Assembly: GCA_018817385.1 (NCBI GenBank)
Contig: JAHIUA010000043.1
Coordinates: 62,001 to 126,000 of the forward strand
From: Pseudomonadota bacterium
GTDB lineage: Bacteria > Desulfobacterota > Desulfobulbia > Desulfobulbales > Desulfocapsaceae
Direction of reading: 5' to 3'
DNA length: 64,000 nt
Shown: positions 34,445 to 46,161 of the stretch, piece after piece
How the letters are laid out: each line of letters starts with the position of its first letter
Position numbering within the stretch: the stretch's first letter is position 1
The notes under the pieces: model-generated
Databases searched by the model: none
Told to the model about the DNA's origin: nothing
The model's input: the letters and a program-made list of their open reading frames with translations, nothing else
Position numbers and translations under genes: made by a program

Positions 34445-34807
34445 AGGGCACCGGATGTACTCCTTGAAAAGGGCCAAGGGCCTGGAGTCCAGGAAAAACC
34501 GGGCAGGCCTGCCGTCAACTTCGCAAGTGGGAGTGGCAGTCCGCACGTATTGTTATTGTAACTGACGAAATACAGTTTAGGCGTTCCTGTAACAAAAGTA
34601 AAACAAAATCTATACCTTATCCGTTGTTTCTGGGAGGGTGCCGGCACTTTCTACAATGTTTTTCAGGGGATGCGACAATATGCCACATTGTGGTGCTTGC
34701 TGTTTTCGGTTATCTTTGTTGTAAGTGAGGTCTGATTGGAGTTGGCTGAGCTGGATGCGTTGGTCTTGGCCAATAATCGTACAACCAGTATGTGGAGGAA
34801 AGACATT
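34445..34807. other. regB-cytochrome divergent control region
   Basis: No gene. A partial dyad TGCGACAATATGCCACA (34671-34687) resembles the loose GC-rich half-sites of RegA/PrrA binding sequences, and CCACATTGTGG overlaps it. No clear -35/-10 pair was found for either direction. Confidence 0.4.
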
Positions 34808-35608
34808 ATGGAGAAACCGGATAAAAATTGTCATAGCTTATCTCGCCGGAAGATGATGATTGGTACTGCAGGGATCCTTGCTGCAGGTACTGCTCTCACG
34901 CAATTTGGTGGGATATTGAAGTCGGCTCAGGCCAAAGGTGGGACTAACGAAAAGTGGCCATGGCCCTATGAAAAACTTGATCCGGGCAAGACTGCTGAGA
35001 TCTGTTACGAGGAGTGGTACAGGGTGTTTTGTGGTTGTGCAGTAATCAACTCTGTTTTTACTCAGTTGGCGGAAAAAGTTGGAGAGCCGTATGCCTCCTT
35101 CCCATCCGATGCCTTTGTATTTCTTGAAGGCGGTATGGTTGGCTGGGGTACGGTTTGTGGTTCGCCGGCTGGCGCCAATATCGTTGCCAACCTGATCATT
35201 GGTCCCCGTATCGCCGGTGCCCCGGAGGGGCACCAGATTGCCAATGACCTCATGGAATGGTATTCCAGGGCCGATATGCCTATTTTTAAACCGGCAACAC
35301 CACGCATTGCCATCGATAAAATTGTTACCACCACCAGTGACTCTCCACTCTGCCACGTGTCCGTTGGTAAGTGGATGGAGGCCTCAGGGCACCCCCTGAA
35401 GAGTGCTGAAAGAAAAGACCGTTGTGCCAGGGTTGCGGCGAGCACTGCCTACCGGCTGGTGGAGTTGCTCAATGACTGGAAGGACGGCAAGTATGAGACC
35501 ACCGCAGAGTTTTCTGCGGTGAAAGAGCATGGCATTACCGGTCAATATAACTGCGGTGAATGTCACGATAACGTCCCAAGCCCTCCCATGCCGACAGAGA
35601 AATCTTGA
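34808..35608 (+). CDS. Tat-exported split-Soret-type cytochrome c / C_GCAxxG protein
   Basis: 266 residues. The N-terminus has a Tat signal (LSRRKMMIGTAGILAAGTAL, cleaved near AQA). The mature domain has the C_GCAxxG_C_C pattern (CGCAVINSVF, GGMVGWGTVCGSPAGA) and a single c-type heme site CGECH at the C-terminus. This arrangement is that of split-Soret cytochrome c of Desulfovibrio, which is described as binding two hemes per subunit; only one CxxCH is seen here. GGAGGAAAGACATT is an ideal ribosome binding site. It lies divergent from RegB/RegA, so redox control is likely (inference). Confidence 0.78.
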   Translation: MEKPDKNCHSLSRRKMMIGTAGILAAGTALTQFGGILKSAQAKGGTNEKWPWPYEKLDPGKTAEICYEEWYRVFCGCAVINSVFTQLAEKVGEPYASFPSDAFVFLEGGMVGWGTVCGSPAGANIVANLIIGPRIAGAPEGHQIANDLMEWYSRADMPIFKPATPRIAIDKIVTTTSDSPLCHVSVGKWMEASGHPLKSAERKDRCARVAASTAYRLVELLNDWKDGKYETTAEFSAVKEHGITGQYNCGECHDNVPSPPMPTEKS

Positions 35609-39155: not shown

Positions 39156-41597
39156 ATGAAAAGAAATTCTTGTCCGTTGCAGCAAAAGGTTATTGTTTTT
39201 TTACTTGTTTCACTCCTCTCCTGGATCTTTCCCCTGATTGCAACAGCTGGAGCTTCTGCTAAAGGATATTCTGTGACTCTGGAGGCCTTCCGTCAGGTGG
39301 CATGTGAAGATGAAGAACTCTTTCACTATAATAAAGATATTATCAAAGCACTGGATTACACCAATATGCGTGTCCTCCGCTCCTTTACTCAGTTGCCCTG
39401 CATTTCGGCCCAGGAGATAGTGGATGTCCTGAGAAGACTGGTTACTGCCAAAATAAGCTTTGAAGACCAACTCCTCCTTGAGCGCTTTGTTACCTTGGAA
39501 GGAGCCGATGTGGTGTCGAGCTGGCAGTTTCTGAAACAGCTGGACGGGTTGAGCTATAGCGCCGGTAGAGTGATGATGGCCTTTCAGTTTGTCGATGTCA
39601 TAACGGCTCATGATCTCCTGGCCTATGTCGATCGCATTGGAGGGATGGCCGAACCAGCTGGTTGGGCCCTGAAGGCCTTCCTTGTCCTCCCCGGGCAGAG
39701 CAGGAAAAGTGTAGCGCAAGGCATGGATCTGTTGGAGGCGATGAGTGAAAGGCAGCAGTGGGCCATGGAACAGTGTTGCAAGATTCCTGGGATGAACGCC
39801 TATAAGGCTTTGGAAAATATGTCCTATATCCGCGGCTTGGCCAATACTGATGCCTGGAATGCACGGGGACTGTTCAAGCAGGATATCGATCCCGAGGTAG
39901 CTTTTTCCTGGCTCAAAGATTATTTCAGTCTGCCCCAACAGAGGGAAGAAGAACTGTTTTTTAGTTTTTCTCCGGCAGACAAGGCCATCCTCCTCAAAGG
40001 CTTTGCCGAGGCTTCCGATTATTTGACATGGAAGATCAATGACCTGCACTCAGTGACTGATCTGCAGGGGCGGGAGATTTCTGCCGGGGTACTCAGCAGT
40101 TACTCGGCTTCCTTTATGGACCGAATCTGGAAACGTCTGGATGGGAAGGTACGGAGCCAATATGGGACAGCCTTTTATGAGGCTCTGCACAGTGGCAATA
40201 AGGGCGCGGCCATTGCTGTTCTGCGCAAGGCCACAGACCGTGCCCGTGTCCAGGTAGCCTATGATACCACTACCGCCAATATCTATATCTTGCTCTCCAA
40301 GGGCAGTGAACTCTACGATTCTTCTTTTCGTGATATTTTAGTCCCTGTCCTTAAAAGTCGTATTGAAGAGCACTTTGCGGCCAATCTTCTCCAGTTTCTT
40401 CTGGCCGTTGACCCGGAGAACAATCATGTCTCTGATTTTATTATCAGTCTGGCCCAGCGGGGGAAACTGGCGACCTTTTTTCCCCAGGATTCCGAGGAAC
40501 AGAAACGGGTCCTCGACCTGGTAACGAATTCGGCCTTTCAGGATGAAAACAGCCTGATTCTCTTTTCCGCCACCTTTATGACACTGCTGCAGAATATCGA
40601 GCCGGCGACCCGCACCTATCTCATCGGTAAGATGCTCACTGCCATTCGCGATGGGAATACTGTCTTTACCACTCAGCTGCGGGTTATTCTTCAATATTAT
40701 AAGCAGTATTATTCTGACTTTGTTGGTGACGTGGATAAGTCTCGGATTAATTTGATGATGTTTGATTACGGGGCCATACCCTTGGAATTGTATACCCGCA
40801 CTGCCTTTGCAGAGTGGAAGGCAGACAATCGTCTCTCCAGCCTTTCGGTCTTCCATAATGATGATGACGGCAAGCAGTCCTACCTCTCCAACTGCGCCTT
40901 TCTGATTAAGCAGGGATACCAGCCGCGATTATCGCGTGGCTTTAACCTGCATGCCTACTCGGCTGTCACCGGAGAGGCTGCAAACCTGCTCCGTAATTTT
41001 TCCGCTTCTCCAAGTAAGGTCATGAGCTCTTTATTTGTCCTCCAAGGCAGAAAACCGGTGGTCATTGACTGGGTGAAACGGATCAATGGGATTGAGGTCT
41101 CTCACTCTGTTTTTGTCTTTCAGGGGGAAGAGGTACAGATGGAGCTCTTGAAACAGTTTCTCAAGGGGGGGCATGAAATGTTTGCCCAGCGTGGACATTC
41201 TTATTGGCGCAAGGAACAATTGATAGAGCCTATCACCAAGCTTTTGGAAAGTGGTGCGGTTACAGAAGAGGATCTCCTTGTCAAACAACGCTTTATGAGT
41301 ATTGGTTCTTGCGGTGGTATTCGTGCCTATTCCGAACTGGCCACCACGTTCAAAAATAATGTCGATATCCTGGCCACTGTGGGGACGGGTAAGGCCGTTA
41401 TTAATAATCCTTATAACGAATTTCTTTTTGAGGCTGTTGCCGAAGCCAAGGTCGACTTGACCTGGGATGATGTGGCCAGACGTTCATCCGGCATTTTTAC
41501 GCAGGGTCTGGGTGAGGATTACTTGCAACCAGGCTCTTTGCCTGCCATTCTGCACAAGATCATGGACCAGAAAAAAATCGATCATGCCTTTGATTAA
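39156..41597 (+). CDS. Large exported protein: helical repeats plus caspase-like C-terminal domain
   Basis: 813 residues. Signal peptide at about 1-35 (VIVFLLVSLLSWIFPLIATA). Residues about 75-260 show tandem helical repeats of roughly 32 residues, each with a W/A-rich helix and F-x-x-(L/I/V) at the unit border. Residues about 575-790 look like a clan CD (caspase/gingipain) fold: FHNDDDGKQSY, later strand VFVFQGEE, then His681 in AQRGHSYW and Cys719 in MSIGSCGG, 38 residues apart as in that clan, followed by TVGTGKAVINNP. I recall similar RGHSY/GSCGG pairs in unnamed bacterial proteins but cannot verify them here. Peptidase activity and target are inference. It overlaps holA by 14 bases. Confidence 0.72.
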   Translation: MKRNSCPLQQKVIVFLLVSLLSWIFPLIATAGASAKGYSVTLEAFRQVACEDEELFHYNKDIIKALDYTNMRVLRSFTQLPCISAQEIVDVLRRLVTAKISFEDQLLLERFVTLEGADVVSSWQFLKQLDGLSYSAGRVMMAFQFVDVITAHDLLAYVDRIGGMAEPAGWALKAFLVLPGQSRKSVAQGMDLLEAMSERQQWAMEQCCKIPGMNAYKALENMSYIRGLANTDAWNARGLFKQDIDPEVAFSWLKDYFSLPQQREEELFFSFSPADKAILLKGFAEASDYLTWKINDLHSVTDLQGREISAGVLSSYSASFMDRIWKRLDGKVRSQYGTAFYEALHSGNKGAAIAVLRKATDRARVQVAYDTTTANIYILLSKGSELYDSSFRDILVPVLKSRIEEHFAANLLQFLLAVDPENNHVSDFIISLAQRGKLATFFPQDSEEQKRVLDLVTNSAFQDENSLILFSATFMTLLQNIEPATRTYLIGKMLTAIRDGNTVFTTQLRVILQYYKQYYSDFVGDVDKSRINLMMFDYGAIPLELYTRTAFAEWKADNRLSSLSVFHNDDDGKQSYLSNCAFLIKQGYQPRLSRGFNLHAYSAVTGEAANLLRNFSASPSKVMSSLFVLQGRKPVVIDWVKRINGIEVSHSVFVFQGEEVQMELLKQFLKGGHEMFAQRGHSYWRKEQLIEPITKLLESGAVTEEDLLVKQRFMSIGSCGGIRAYSELATTFKNNVDILATVGTGKAVINNPYNEFLFEAVAEAKVDLTWDDVARRSSGIFTQGLGEDYLQPGSLPAILHKIMDQKKIDHAFD

Positions 41598-42972
41598 CCG
41601 TTCAGAATTACCCGCCTTCCTTCAGCAAGTGAAGAAGGGAAGCTATCCGCAACTCTACCTCTTTTTTGGAGAGCGCTATCTCTGCCGAGAGGCAGCAGAC
41701 AGTCTGCAGCAGGCATTGCTAGCCTTGCCGGCCGGCGGTTCGGTTAACTCCATAGATGGGGACAGGGAGGACAGCAGCAGGACCCTGGGGCAGATCATGA
41801 ACTTCAGCCTCCTGCCAGGTCTGCAGATCCATCGGGTCACTGACAGCAGGCTTTTTCACTCAAAAAATACAGCATCAGCCCTCTGGAACAAGGTGGCATT
41901 GGCTCATGCGGAAAAGAAGGAGGCCCGTTGTTGCCGGCATCTCCTGGCCTTTATAGCACTGGCTGGACTTTCCGCCAATGATGGTCTTGAGGGAATAGAG
42001 GCCGGGCAGTGGCAGAACCTTTTTGGCTTTTCCCGGCCCCAAGAGAGCCTGGTCTGGGCCGATGAACTGCTGGCTGCTGCTGGCCCGCAGCAGGTGGTAT
42101 CCGGTGGAGATATAACCGGACGCTACAGAGACGCTTTTACCAAAGGCGTTCCTCCCTATAATATCCTTTTGCTCACCGCCGAGGCGGTAGATAAACGAAA
42201 ACAATTCTTCACCTTTATCAAAAAAGAGGGAGTTGTGGTAGACTGTTCCATAGACACCGGATCAGGAGCTGCTGCTCAGAAAGGACAGAAGGCCATCCTC
42301 CAAGAGCTGGTACTGAAGAGTCTTGGTGGATTAGGCAAAAAAATGGGACCACGGGTCTTGGACATTTTCTTTGAGCGGGTGGGCTTCCATCCCGTTGCAG
42401 TGGTGATGGAAACGGAAAAGCTGGCCCTGTCAGTGGGAGACAGAGAGCTTATTACCGTGGAAGATCTTGATGCCATGGTGGGAAGAACCCGTGAGGACGC
42501 ACTATTTGAATTGACTGATGCCTTTGGCCAACAGCAGACCGGTCGAACGTTGGTCATTTTGCATCGGCTCCTGGAAAATGGTATCCATGGGCTGGCTATT
42601 CTGGCGACCCTGAGAAACTATCTGCGTCGACTCCTTATTTTTCGTTCTCTGCAGCTCCAGCCGGAACCGCAATGGCAGTCGGGAATGAATGCGCAACAGT
42701 TTCAGGGCAGCTATCTGCCCGCATTGAAGCAGCGTGGAGAATGGAAAGAGTTGTTGCAAGGCCATCCTTATGCCCTGTTCATGAGTTTTAGCAAGGCTCA
42801 GGGATTTTCTTGTGCCCAGTTAAAGAACTGGTTCGGGTTGCTGCTTCAGGCTGAATATCGGTTGAAGGGTGCCCCTTTGCCCCAGGAACTTGTACTGGAA
42901 GAGCTTTTGTTGAGCATGTTCGCAACGGCTAAGCGGAACAGAAGAGAAATATCGAAACGACAGGGATATTGA
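41584..42972 (+). CDS. holA: DNA polymerase III subunit delta
   Basis: 462 residues, longer than the usual 340 because of an insertion at about 90-150 (VALAHAEKKEARCC...). The N-terminal AAA-like fold begins YPQLYLFFGERYLCREAADS and the C-terminal region has REDALFELTDAFGQQQ and LLRNYLRRLLIF-type helices known in delta subunits. It opens the beta clamp in the clamp loader. The ATG at 41584 lies inside the end of the preceding frame, indicating translational coupling with the exported protein, an odd partner for a replication gene. Confidence 0.85.
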   Translation: MPLINRSELPAFLQQVKKGSYPQLYLFFGERYLCREAADSLQQALLALPAGGSVNSIDGDREDSSRTLGQIMNFSLLPGLQIHRVTDSRLFHSKNTASALWNKVALAHAEKKEARCCRHLLAFIALAGLSANDGLEGIEAGQWQNLFGFSRPQESLVWADELLAAAGPQQVVSGGDITGRYRDAFTKGVPPYNILLLTAEAVDKRKQFFTFIKKEGVVVDCSIDTGSGAAAQKGQKAILQELVLKSLGGLGKKMGPRVLDIFFERVGFHPVAVVMETEKLALSVGDRELITVEDLDAMVGRTREDALFELTDAFGQQQTGRTLVILHRLLENGIHGLAILATLRNYLRRLLIFRSLQLQPEPQWQSGMNAQQFQGSYLPALKQRGEWKELLQGHPYALFMSFSKAQGFSCAQLKNWFGLLLQAEYRLKGAPLPQELVLEELLLSMFATAKRNRREISKRQGY

Positions 42973-43403: not shown

Positions 43404-43512
43404 TCGCAGGACAGCTGGATACTCAGGAGAAGGAAATTTTTTTTGAATGTATTGAACGAGGTAGAAACAGGTCTGAATTTTACTGCTAACCCTTTAACGG
43501 GTGATTAATGAT

Positions 43513-45768
43513 ATGTTAAGTAAACCATTGGAATTAGCCCTGGTCAGGGCCATTCGAGAGGCAAAGAGTTATAATCACGAGTACGTCACTGTGGAGCATA
43601 TGCTCTACGGTCTCCTCCATGATGAACTGGCAGAGTATATCATTAAAGAATGTGGAGGCTCCGCCGAAAATCTGAAAAAGCGGCTGGAGTCTTTCTTTTC
43701 TGGGGAGCTGCCCACTGTTCCCGCCGGAGATCCTGCCCAGACTGTGGGGTTTAACCGTGTCCTGCAGCGGGCTGTGGCCCATGTTCAAAGCTGTGGCAAG
43801 AAAGAGGTGGACAGTGGTGATGTGCTGGTTTCCATTTTTTCCGAAGCCGAGTCGCATGCCGTTTATTTTCTCGGCTCCGAAGGGCTGGGGCGTATGTCTG
43901 TGGTGGAGTTTATATCCCATTCTCTGCCGGATGATTTGCAGAAGGAGCCTCTGCCCCGAATGCCGCCCGGACCAGCCGGGGGCAAGGATGTGGACAAAGA
44001 TGAGAAAATTCTCCAGGAGTTCACCGTCAACTATGCCAAAAGCGCGGCCAAGGGTAAGCTTGATCCCCTGATTGGTCGCAAGAACGAAGTGAAGCGGATG
44101 ATGCAGGTGCTCTGCCGGCGGAAAAAAAATAATCCCCTGCTGGTGGGTGAGCCAGGGGTAGGGAAGACCGCCATTGCTGAAGGGTTGGCCCTGCTTATTC
44201 ATGCCGACAAGGAGGCCCGGGCTGCAGAAGAGAAACCTTTGGTTCCGGATCTCCTCCAGGATGAGGAAATCTTGCTCCTGGATATGGGCAGTCTGGTGGC
44301 TGGAACCAAGTATCGAGGAGATTTTGAGAAGCGGCTGAAGGGCGTGATTGCAGCCGTTGAACGGAAGGGTAATGCCATCCTGTTCATCGACGAGATGCAC
44401 ACCATCGTCGGCGCAGGAGCCACCAGCGGTGGTTCCATGGATGCTTCCAATCTCCTCAAACCAGCTCTGCAGGCAGGGACCCTGCGCTGTATCGGTTCCA
44501 CTACATACGAAGAGTATAAGAATCATATCGAAAAGGATCGGGCTCTGGCACGCAGGTTCCAGAAGATCGATGTCGAAGAACCTTCTGTGGAGGATACCAC
44601 TCGTATCCTCCAGGGCTTGCAGTCCCGTTACGAAGATCATCATCGGGTTTCCTATTCCCGCACTGCTATTCGGGCAACAGCTGAGCTTGCCGAACGCTAT
44701 ATCAATGACCGTTTTCTGCCGGATAAGGCCATTGATGTCATGGACGAGGTGGGTTCTGCCTTTCGCATGGCCGGTAAACTCGATAAGATCGTCAAGGTGC
44801 GGGACGTTGAGAACGTGGTCTCACGCATGGCCAGGGTTCCTGCCAAGAGTGGCTCCCGTGCTGAGCTTGTTTCCCTGCAGGAATTGACGGCTTCGATGAA
44901 GCAGGTGATCTTTGGTCAGGACCAGGCCATTGAGGCCGTGGTTACGGCCGTGAAACGATCGCGTGCAGGCCTCGGCAACCCTGATTCTCCCACGGGCTGT
45001 TTCCTTTTTGCCGGACCGACCGGGGTGGGCAAGACAGAGGTGGCCAGGCAGCTGGCAAACAAGCTTTCCGTTCACTTTGAACGTTTTGACATGAGTGAGT
45101 ACATGGAAAAACATGCGGTGGCCCGTCTCATCGGTGCCCCTCCTGGCTATATTGGTTTTGAACAGGGAGGCCTGCTTACCGAGGCCGTTCGTAAGCATCC
45201 ATACTGTGTCCTCCTCCTCGATGAAATCGAAAAGGCCCATCCCGATATCTTTTCTATTCTCCTTCAGGTCATGGATCATTCCACCCTCACTGATAACTCC
45301 GGTCGGAAGGCAGATTTCCGCAACGTCATTATCATGATGACCACCAATGCCGGTGCCCGTGAAATGTCCAGTGCGCCCATTGGCTTTGTGGCTGAGAAAA
45401 AGGGGCGGGAGCAAAAGGCGGTCAAAAATCTCTTTTCACCTGAGTTTCGTAATCGTCTGGATGCTATTATCTCTTTTTCAGTCCTTGAACCTAAGGCCGT
45501 GGAAAAGGTGGTTGATAAACTGATCGTGGAATTGCAGGCGCAGCTTGGCGAAAAAAAGGTCTTTGTCTCTCTCACTGCCAAGGCTCGTTCCTGGTTGGCC
45601 AAAAAAGGGTATGATCCCGCCTTTGGTGCCAGGCCTATGCGCAGGCTGATTATGAAGGAGATTGGTGATGTTCTCACCGATGAGATCCTCTTCGGTCAAC
45701 TGGTTTCAGGAGGAAAGGTGACCGTGGGGCTGCGTGAAGACAAATTGACGTTTACCTATAAGAACTGA
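43513..45768 (+). CDS. clpA: ClpA ATPase subunit of ClpAP
   Basis: 751 residues: double Clp_N repeat (1-140), first AAA+ module (Walker [10 protein letters not shown]; Walker [10 protein letters not shown]), second AAA+ module (Walker [10 protein letters not shown]; Walker [14 protein letters not shown]) and a C-terminal D2-small domain. It unfolds substrates delivered by ClpS and passes them to ClpP, using the IGF-type loop of the family. The frame is open to a GTG at 43501, but [14 protein letters not shown] is the normal beginning and I start at the ATG. No clpP is in the window. Confidence 0.95.
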
Positions 45769-45777
45769 GTTCATCTC

Positions 45778-46161
45778 ATGTTTTCAGAGATGGTTCATGA
45801 TCTCGAACATGGCATCTTCCCCGATCTTGGTTTGTTACGTGGAAGATGCCATGCTGCTGTGACCAAGAAACTGGCTTTGGTTCGTCTTCCTCCTGCCTAC
45901 TGGGAGAGTGACCCCAAGCGCAATCCCGATACCAGGCACCTGCTGTGGGCAATTCTGCTGCTCCATGATCTGGATCTGTTTGAGGTGATCAAGGGAATCA
46001 TCCTCATGGAGGAGGCAGAGGGGAAAGGGCTTTCGGCAGAGGACTTCTGGACAAACAGCGTCGAGGAGTTCCTGGCCCTGGCTCCAGATCTCCACTTTAA
46101 AGCACTCCTGCAGGAGCAGGTGGCCTGGGTTGAAAAGGGGCCAGAGGGGAGTCATAAGTGA
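45778..46161 (+). CDS. Small conserved-looking protein after clpA (127 aa)
   Basis: An acidic, mostly helical soluble protein with many Leu and Glu. It starts nine bases past the clpA stop, so it is in the clp operon. I recognise no family. Patterns such as AYWESDPKRNPDTRHLLWAIL and the hydrophobic LHDLDLFEVIKGIIL suggest a compact helical adaptor. The first part of the gene holds a perfect 13-bp inverted repeat (45808-45820 with 45841-45853, 20-base loop), which would fold the message just after the start. Confidence 0.65.
   Translation: MFSEMVHDLEHGIFPDLGLLRGRCHAAVTKKLALVRLPPAYWESDPKRNPDTRHLLWAILLLHDLDLFEVIKGIILMEEAEGKGLSAEDFWTNSVEEFLALAPDLHFKALLQEQVAWVEKGPEGSHK

Follow-up and report, generated by a model that had tools for sequence, protein, structure and literature searches.

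Is the protein encoded at 39156-41597 of the window (the whole stretch of 64,000 nucleotides analysed here) an exported cysteine peptidase of the caspase type, and to which family does it belong? A preliminary description of this DNA, made from the letters alone, had proposed an exported 813-residue protein that combines N-terminal helical repeats with the His-then-Cys pair of the clan CD peptidases. Our analysis leads us to place it in an undescribed family of cysteine peptidases, exported and probably periplasmic, whose catalytic domain is clan CD-like and of which the Desulfobulbales proteins form one branch; to this reading we assign a probability of roughly 60%.

Results

Architecture of the gene product

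The open reading frame begins with ATG, runs without an internal stop and specifies 813 amino acids. The following features precede or enclose its C-terminal domain.

39156..41597, plus strand: coding sequence of an exported protein with a C-terminal His/Cys alpha/beta domain, 813 aa
39156..39254, plus strand: signal peptide-like segment, residues about 1-33, with low AF2 pLDDT
39306..39980, plus strand: seven alpha-hairpin repeats of about 32 residues (alpha-solenoid), residues about 51-275
39981..40760, plus strand: all-helical middle region in the AF2 secondary structure, residues about 276-535
40311..40331, plus strand: LYDSSFR motif, residues 386-392, identical in 78-79 of 79 sequences at each position; aligned by hhalign with LYTSS in Azospirillum relatives

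Both the export and the 32-residue repeats that had been read from the letters were upheld by comparison with orthologues. The N-terminus is signal peptide-like, and 69 of 78 orthologues have a hydrophobic stretch there. When 79 aligned sequences were combined into a profile, its autocorrelation had a single strong peak at an offset of 32, which stood 4.75 SD above the other offsets, and the AF2 helix pairs between residues 51 and 275 recur with a period of 31-34 residues. For the whole protein, the AF2 model had a pLDDT of 85 and a pTM of 0.75.

Distribution in the phylum and searches against known families

The gene is present as a single copy in its own genome. Full-length relatives with 36-84% identity were found in the Desulfobulbales, the cable bacteria (Electrothrix and Electronema) included, and of 194 genomes of this order, 94 carry a member of the family. 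Across a phylum-wide sample of 395 genomes, matches came from the Desulfobulbales only; the weak matches outside this group (E 0.09-1), such as a CoaBC-like flavoprotein with GVCGGIAAYK, were rejected as chance. No relatives were found among viral contigs and phages.

Searches of Pfam, NCBIfam, PADLOC and PDB sequences with the protein or the profile of its C-terminal domain returned nothing meaningful, and hmmscan matched none of 51 family members to the C11, C14, C25 and CHAT profiles (PF03415, PF00656, PF01364 and PF12770, respectively). Comparison by hhalign with same-phylum alignments of C11, C25, CHAT and C14, and of GTPases as a control, scored no better than comparison with shuffled columns, and the sub-domains, each with 100 column shuffles, likewise gave no signal for clan CD or GTPase alignments. 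In a benchmark, hhalign found the C25-CHAT and CHAT-C14 relationships at about 95% and missed the relationship of C11 to other families of clan CD; given that this relationship is missed too, the profile comparison is short of power. Our literature search gave no paper that names the RGHSY/GSCGG motif or caspases in Desulfobulbaceae. By its sequence, the protein is outside any known family.

Conservation of the His/Cys pair

The residues of interest in the C-terminal domain lie in four short segments.

40860..40871, plus strand: D569-D570-D571-G572 where beta1 meets alpha1, a predicted S1 pocket or metal site; the Azospirillum relatives keep D569, D571 and G572
41190..41204, plus strand: RGHSY, residues 679-683, with candidate catalytic His681 just past a strand
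41304..41318, plus strand: GSCGG, residues 717-721, with candidate nucleophile Cys719 ending the next strand
41382..41411, plus strand: GTGKAVINNP, residues 743-752, in the loop past the following strand

His681 in RGHSYW and Cys719 in SIGSCGG are 38 residues apart, as the preliminary description had noted, and every one of the 79 aligned orthologues has precisely this spacing. Cys719 is the only one of the 7 cysteines that is invariant in the 79 sequences, and His681 shares invariance with only one other of the 13 histidines, His298. Judged from the alignment, the conservation of the pair is far above chance, and the invariance of Cys719 and His681 is what a catalytic pair shows. Two of the 79 sequences read GACGG at the GSCGG position. 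The flanking stretches that had been pointed out together with the pair, FHNDDDGKQSY upstream and VGTGKAVINNP downstream, are also present, and within them D569-D570-D571-G572 and S575, and G743, G745 and N750, are invariant among the 79 orthologues. In clan CD, the dyad is a His followed by a Cys, each of which ends one of two adjacent strands, and His-Gly is usual but not universal; here RGHSY has Gly before and Ser after the His in 79 of 79 sequences.

Pseudo-enzymes exist in clan CD, for example the pseudo-orthocaspases (PMC6426788). An inactive caspase-like scaffold that binds an envelope partner would be consistent with such cases, and also with the helical platform that makes up most of the protein. 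If this were so, decayed dyads would be expected somewhere, whereas none of the 79 sequences departs from His681, Cys719 or the acidic loop, and His681, Cys719, D569 and D571 also recur in the distant relatives described below. We therefore consider an inactive scaffold quite improbable.

Predicted fold of the C-terminal domain

40758..41573, plus strand: C-terminal domain of alpha/beta type (residues 535-806), predicted to be a clan CD-like peptidase domain

AF2 prediction of residues 535-806 from a 51-sequence input gave a pLDDT of 88.1 and a pTM of 0.88. The model runs from beta1 (559-566) and alpha1 (570-585) through a short beta2, two helices, a beta hairpin (637-654) and a helix to a strand (675-679) followed by His681, and then through a helix, a strand (712-719) ending in Cys719 and a further helix to a strand at 736-741. 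His681 and Cys719 thus sit at the C-terminal ends of successive strands, which is a statement about the order of elements in the model and not about spatial adjacency. The caspase/haemoglobinase fold of clan CD has a sheet of strand order 2-1-3-4 with helices on its flanks. In the C11 peptidase PmC11, a hairpin is inserted after beta2, and His and Cys end the next two strands (PMC4357240). The element order of our domain, with its inserted hairpin, is as that paper gives for clan CD and PmC11, which supports the clan CD-like reading.

Ranking of 1000 Foldseek candidates by VIA-align placed the gingipain RgpB at the top (Z 8.0, 183 residues, rmsd 4.1), and caspase-3 (4jr0; Z 7.4, 176 residues), BtC11 (6n9j; Z 7.2, 171 residues) and caspase-8 (Z 7.2, 174 residues) were also among the best matches. 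Small GTPases tied with clan CD in Z, with most of their rows covering fewer residues (about 130-150), and PH0156 tied likewise. Because Z-scores of 7-8 are also seen for unrelated Rossmann-like folds, and because GTPases tie, the clan CD fold that this model suggests is likely but not proven. The caspase-like fold expected in the preliminary description therefore stood in part: the alpha/beta domain, the placement of His and Cys after successive strands and the matches to RgpB, caspases and C11 agree with it, but the scores are shared with small GTPases and no profile reaches clan CD. Foldseek runs with the full-length model and against viral structures gave generic Rossmann or GTPase folds, which were set aside.

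The many small GTPases in both the Foldseek and the VIA-align results would follow if the C-terminal domain were a Ras-like GTPase that has degenerated, a reading that the Foldseek ranking might imply. Yet the domain has neither the P-loop GxxxxGK[ST] nor NKxD, its loop past beta1, with the sequence DDDG, would repel phosphate, the protein has a signal for export, and the GTPase alignments have lower coverage and give no hhalign signal, so that we regard a GTPase origin as highly improbable. A generic fold match, in which GTPases and PH0156 tie with clan CD, would also suit another kind of Cys/His enzyme (amidase, transferase, thioesterase-like or phosphatase-like) that is built on a Rossmann-like sheet and uses the same dyad without cleaving peptides. 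The lack of a profile link to peptidases agrees with this, and the GSCGG and GTG loops, together with three invariant Asp residues, could bind a small ligand or a metal. We think this unlikely, since the order of the His strand and the Cys strand, the larger coverage by clan CD structures and a motif context like that of C25 speak for a peptidase.

Distant relatives on Azospirillum plasmids

The unnamed bacterial proteins with the same pair, which the preliminary description had mentioned, do exist. A composite query was built on an RGHSYHV/GSCGGY pattern that we take to occur in Bacteroidota; we treat it as a lead and not as evidence. Against plasmids, this query matched only Azospirillum, in hypothetical proteins on four plasmids (E 2e-13 to 4e-16); the C-terminal domain of the window protein gave only insignificant matches to plasmids. 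Three of the four proteins were analysed in full (WP_012977853.1, WP_109333566.1 and WP_246457325.1). Like the window protein, they look exported, with a signal peptide-like N-terminus, and carry LYTSS, FYDDPDGR.[ST]F, RGHSYH, GSCGG and IG...N. They differ from it in length (631-738 aa), in a His-Cys spacing of 23, in a distance from DDPDG to His that is about 40 residues shorter, and in having little N-terminal similarity beyond the LYxSS region. In two of these loci, short tandem repeats (GETPTRSGI / GETPARGT) lie between the helical part and the C-terminal domain (L265, 4135-6351; L267, 4327-6351).

The C-terminal domain profile of the window family aligned with the Azospirillum proteins over 152-168 columns (E 1e-4 to 1e-6), and the full-length profile aligned the LYxSS region (E 8e-6). 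Some controls equalled the Azospirillum hhalign scores; these were weak hits, the best of 395 genomes picked with the same profile, and aligned over no more than 94 residues. Because these controls scored as high, and because the composite query itself held the RGHSY/GSCGG stretch, the comparison was repeated outside the motif. For the part of the C-terminal domain upstream of it, the Azospirillum proteins scored 22.6-29.5, where the highest control reached 25.4, and for the N-terminal part 25.4-32.1 against 26.4, at co-linear positions; in each case two of the three exceeded all 250 controls. D569, D571, G572, R679-Y683, G717, C719-G721, G745, N750, W770, Y789 and P792 are invariant in all 54 aligned sequences, Azospirillum included. 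Addition of the Azospirillum sequences to the hhalign searches still gave no link to known families.

Gene neighbourhood

The usual order is the gene followed directly by holA, clpS and clpA, with a variable gene upstream.

41587..42972, plus strand: holA-like gene (DNA polymerase III delta; Pfam DNA_pol3_delta_C, 5.4e-11), conserved downstream neighbour, which overlaps the gene's end with its start codon
43101..43403, plus strand: clpS-like gene, conserved neighbour across Desulfobulbales, named from its translation and its place before clpA
43501..45768, plus strand: clpA (TIGR02639, above cut-off), conserved neighbour by synteny

At about nine loci, cable bacteria among them, the gene is elsewhere or holA was not seen. 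Given that cable bacteria and some others carry the gene elsewhere, and that an exported protein would not meet the cytoplasmic ClpAP, the linkage to holA, clpS and clpA probably marks a genomic address and does not reflect a functional partnership.

Several other details of these regions were recorded. In six loci, mostly of cable bacteria (L064, L066, L075, L077, L078 and L083), no holA was found beside the gene; in L066 the gene comes after an FtsW/RodA-like gene and before a GHMP kinase. A 127-aa open reading frame directly after clpA in the window (45778-46161) is kept in several Desulfocapsa-type loci and has no Pfam match. Further upstream, at 34736-35608, lies a gene that resembles split-Soret cytochrome c, with an NCBIfam score under the cut-off, and whose product has a twin-arginine-like N-terminus.

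Discussion

Proposed mechanism and significance

If the protein is a clan CD-like peptidase, Cys719 would be its nucleophile and His681 the base, roles suggested by the order in which they occur, by their invariance and by their places on the strands. In clan CD, residues at the start of alpha1 line the S1 pocket, and the basic-P1 enzymes MALT1 and TbMCA2 have Asp365 and Asp95 there, respectively (PMC4357240). D569 and D571, being invariant in both branches and placed at the beta1/alpha1 junction, may accordingly shape an S1 pocket that takes Arg or Lys in P1, or else bind calcium. The N-terminal solenoid might gate the enzyme and select its substrates, as the helical arms of separase and the TPR-CHAT proteases do, and the likely role of the protein would be to cut envelope proteins in a limited and specific way, or to process itself, as opposed to bulk degradation. 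Cysteine peptidase activity with a strict P1 preference is a mark of clan CD and would be a candidate property here. We offer with considerable doubt the broader proposal that a clan CD family, widespread but undescribed, has its caspase-like protease gated by an alpha-solenoid in the periplasm. Its members would be regulated proteases in the manner of separase or TPR-CHAT, active outside the cytoplasm and possibly engaged in the sensing or processing of envelope proteins.

Should the dyad be active, the protein would represent a clan CD peptidase family that is absent from the curated libraries searched, common in sulfate-reducing and cable bacteria and with relatives in the Alphaproteobacteria. 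It would also place a helical solenoid with a caspase-like domain, a layout known from separase and TPR-CHAT, outside the cytoplasm.

Comparison with known clan CD systems

The preliminary description had regarded a caspase-like enzyme as new for the Desulfobacterota. This does not hold for the class as a whole, since C11, C14, C25 and CHAT families occur across the phylum, and C11, C14 and CHAT in the same genome. What appears new is the family itself, which has no Pfam, NCBIfam or PADLOC model, and the joining of an exported solenoid to this domain. Among the known families, a C14 gene adjoins a C11 gene on another contig of the same genome (C68, 13827-16239; L101, L119 and L220), and one C11-family protein (L098) has Ser in place of the catalytic Cys and is a probable pseudo-peptidase.

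The TPR-CHAT proteases consist of N-terminal helical repeats and a C-terminal caspase-like domain. Separase cleaves the kleisin subunit of cohesin, an activity that one would not expect from a bacterial protein that is exported. In its predicted layout, the window protein resembles separase (C50), with N-terminal helical repeats ahead of a C-terminal caspase-like domain; the separase domain is described in PMC4626109. Unlike separase and TPR-CHAT, it is exported, has no CHAT profile match and has repeats of 32 residues that are unmatched to TPR; separase was compared through Pfam scans only.

With the clostripain family C11 (PmC11 and BtC11), the protein has in common the hairpin after beta2 followed by the His strand and the Cys strand (PMC4357240). 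It differs from C11 in giving no profile match, in its His-Cys spacing (38, where the C11 members compared have 46-58), in having no Asp two residues before the Cys, and in its C-terminal part. Two C25-family proteins of the phylum (L123 and L124) carry AGHSAID, a motif context (YAG-H-SAID) like that of the window protein. The gingipain family C25 provides the best structural match by Z and coverage, in RgpB. C25 shows no sequence or profile similarity to the window protein, which has an N-terminal helical solenoid and its own acidic triplet at beta1/alpha1; gingipains are nevertheless likewise exported and have His and then Cys after successive strands, and some C25 proteins of the phylum, like the window protein, have His-Ser in place of His-Gly, with the Cys 34 residues on.
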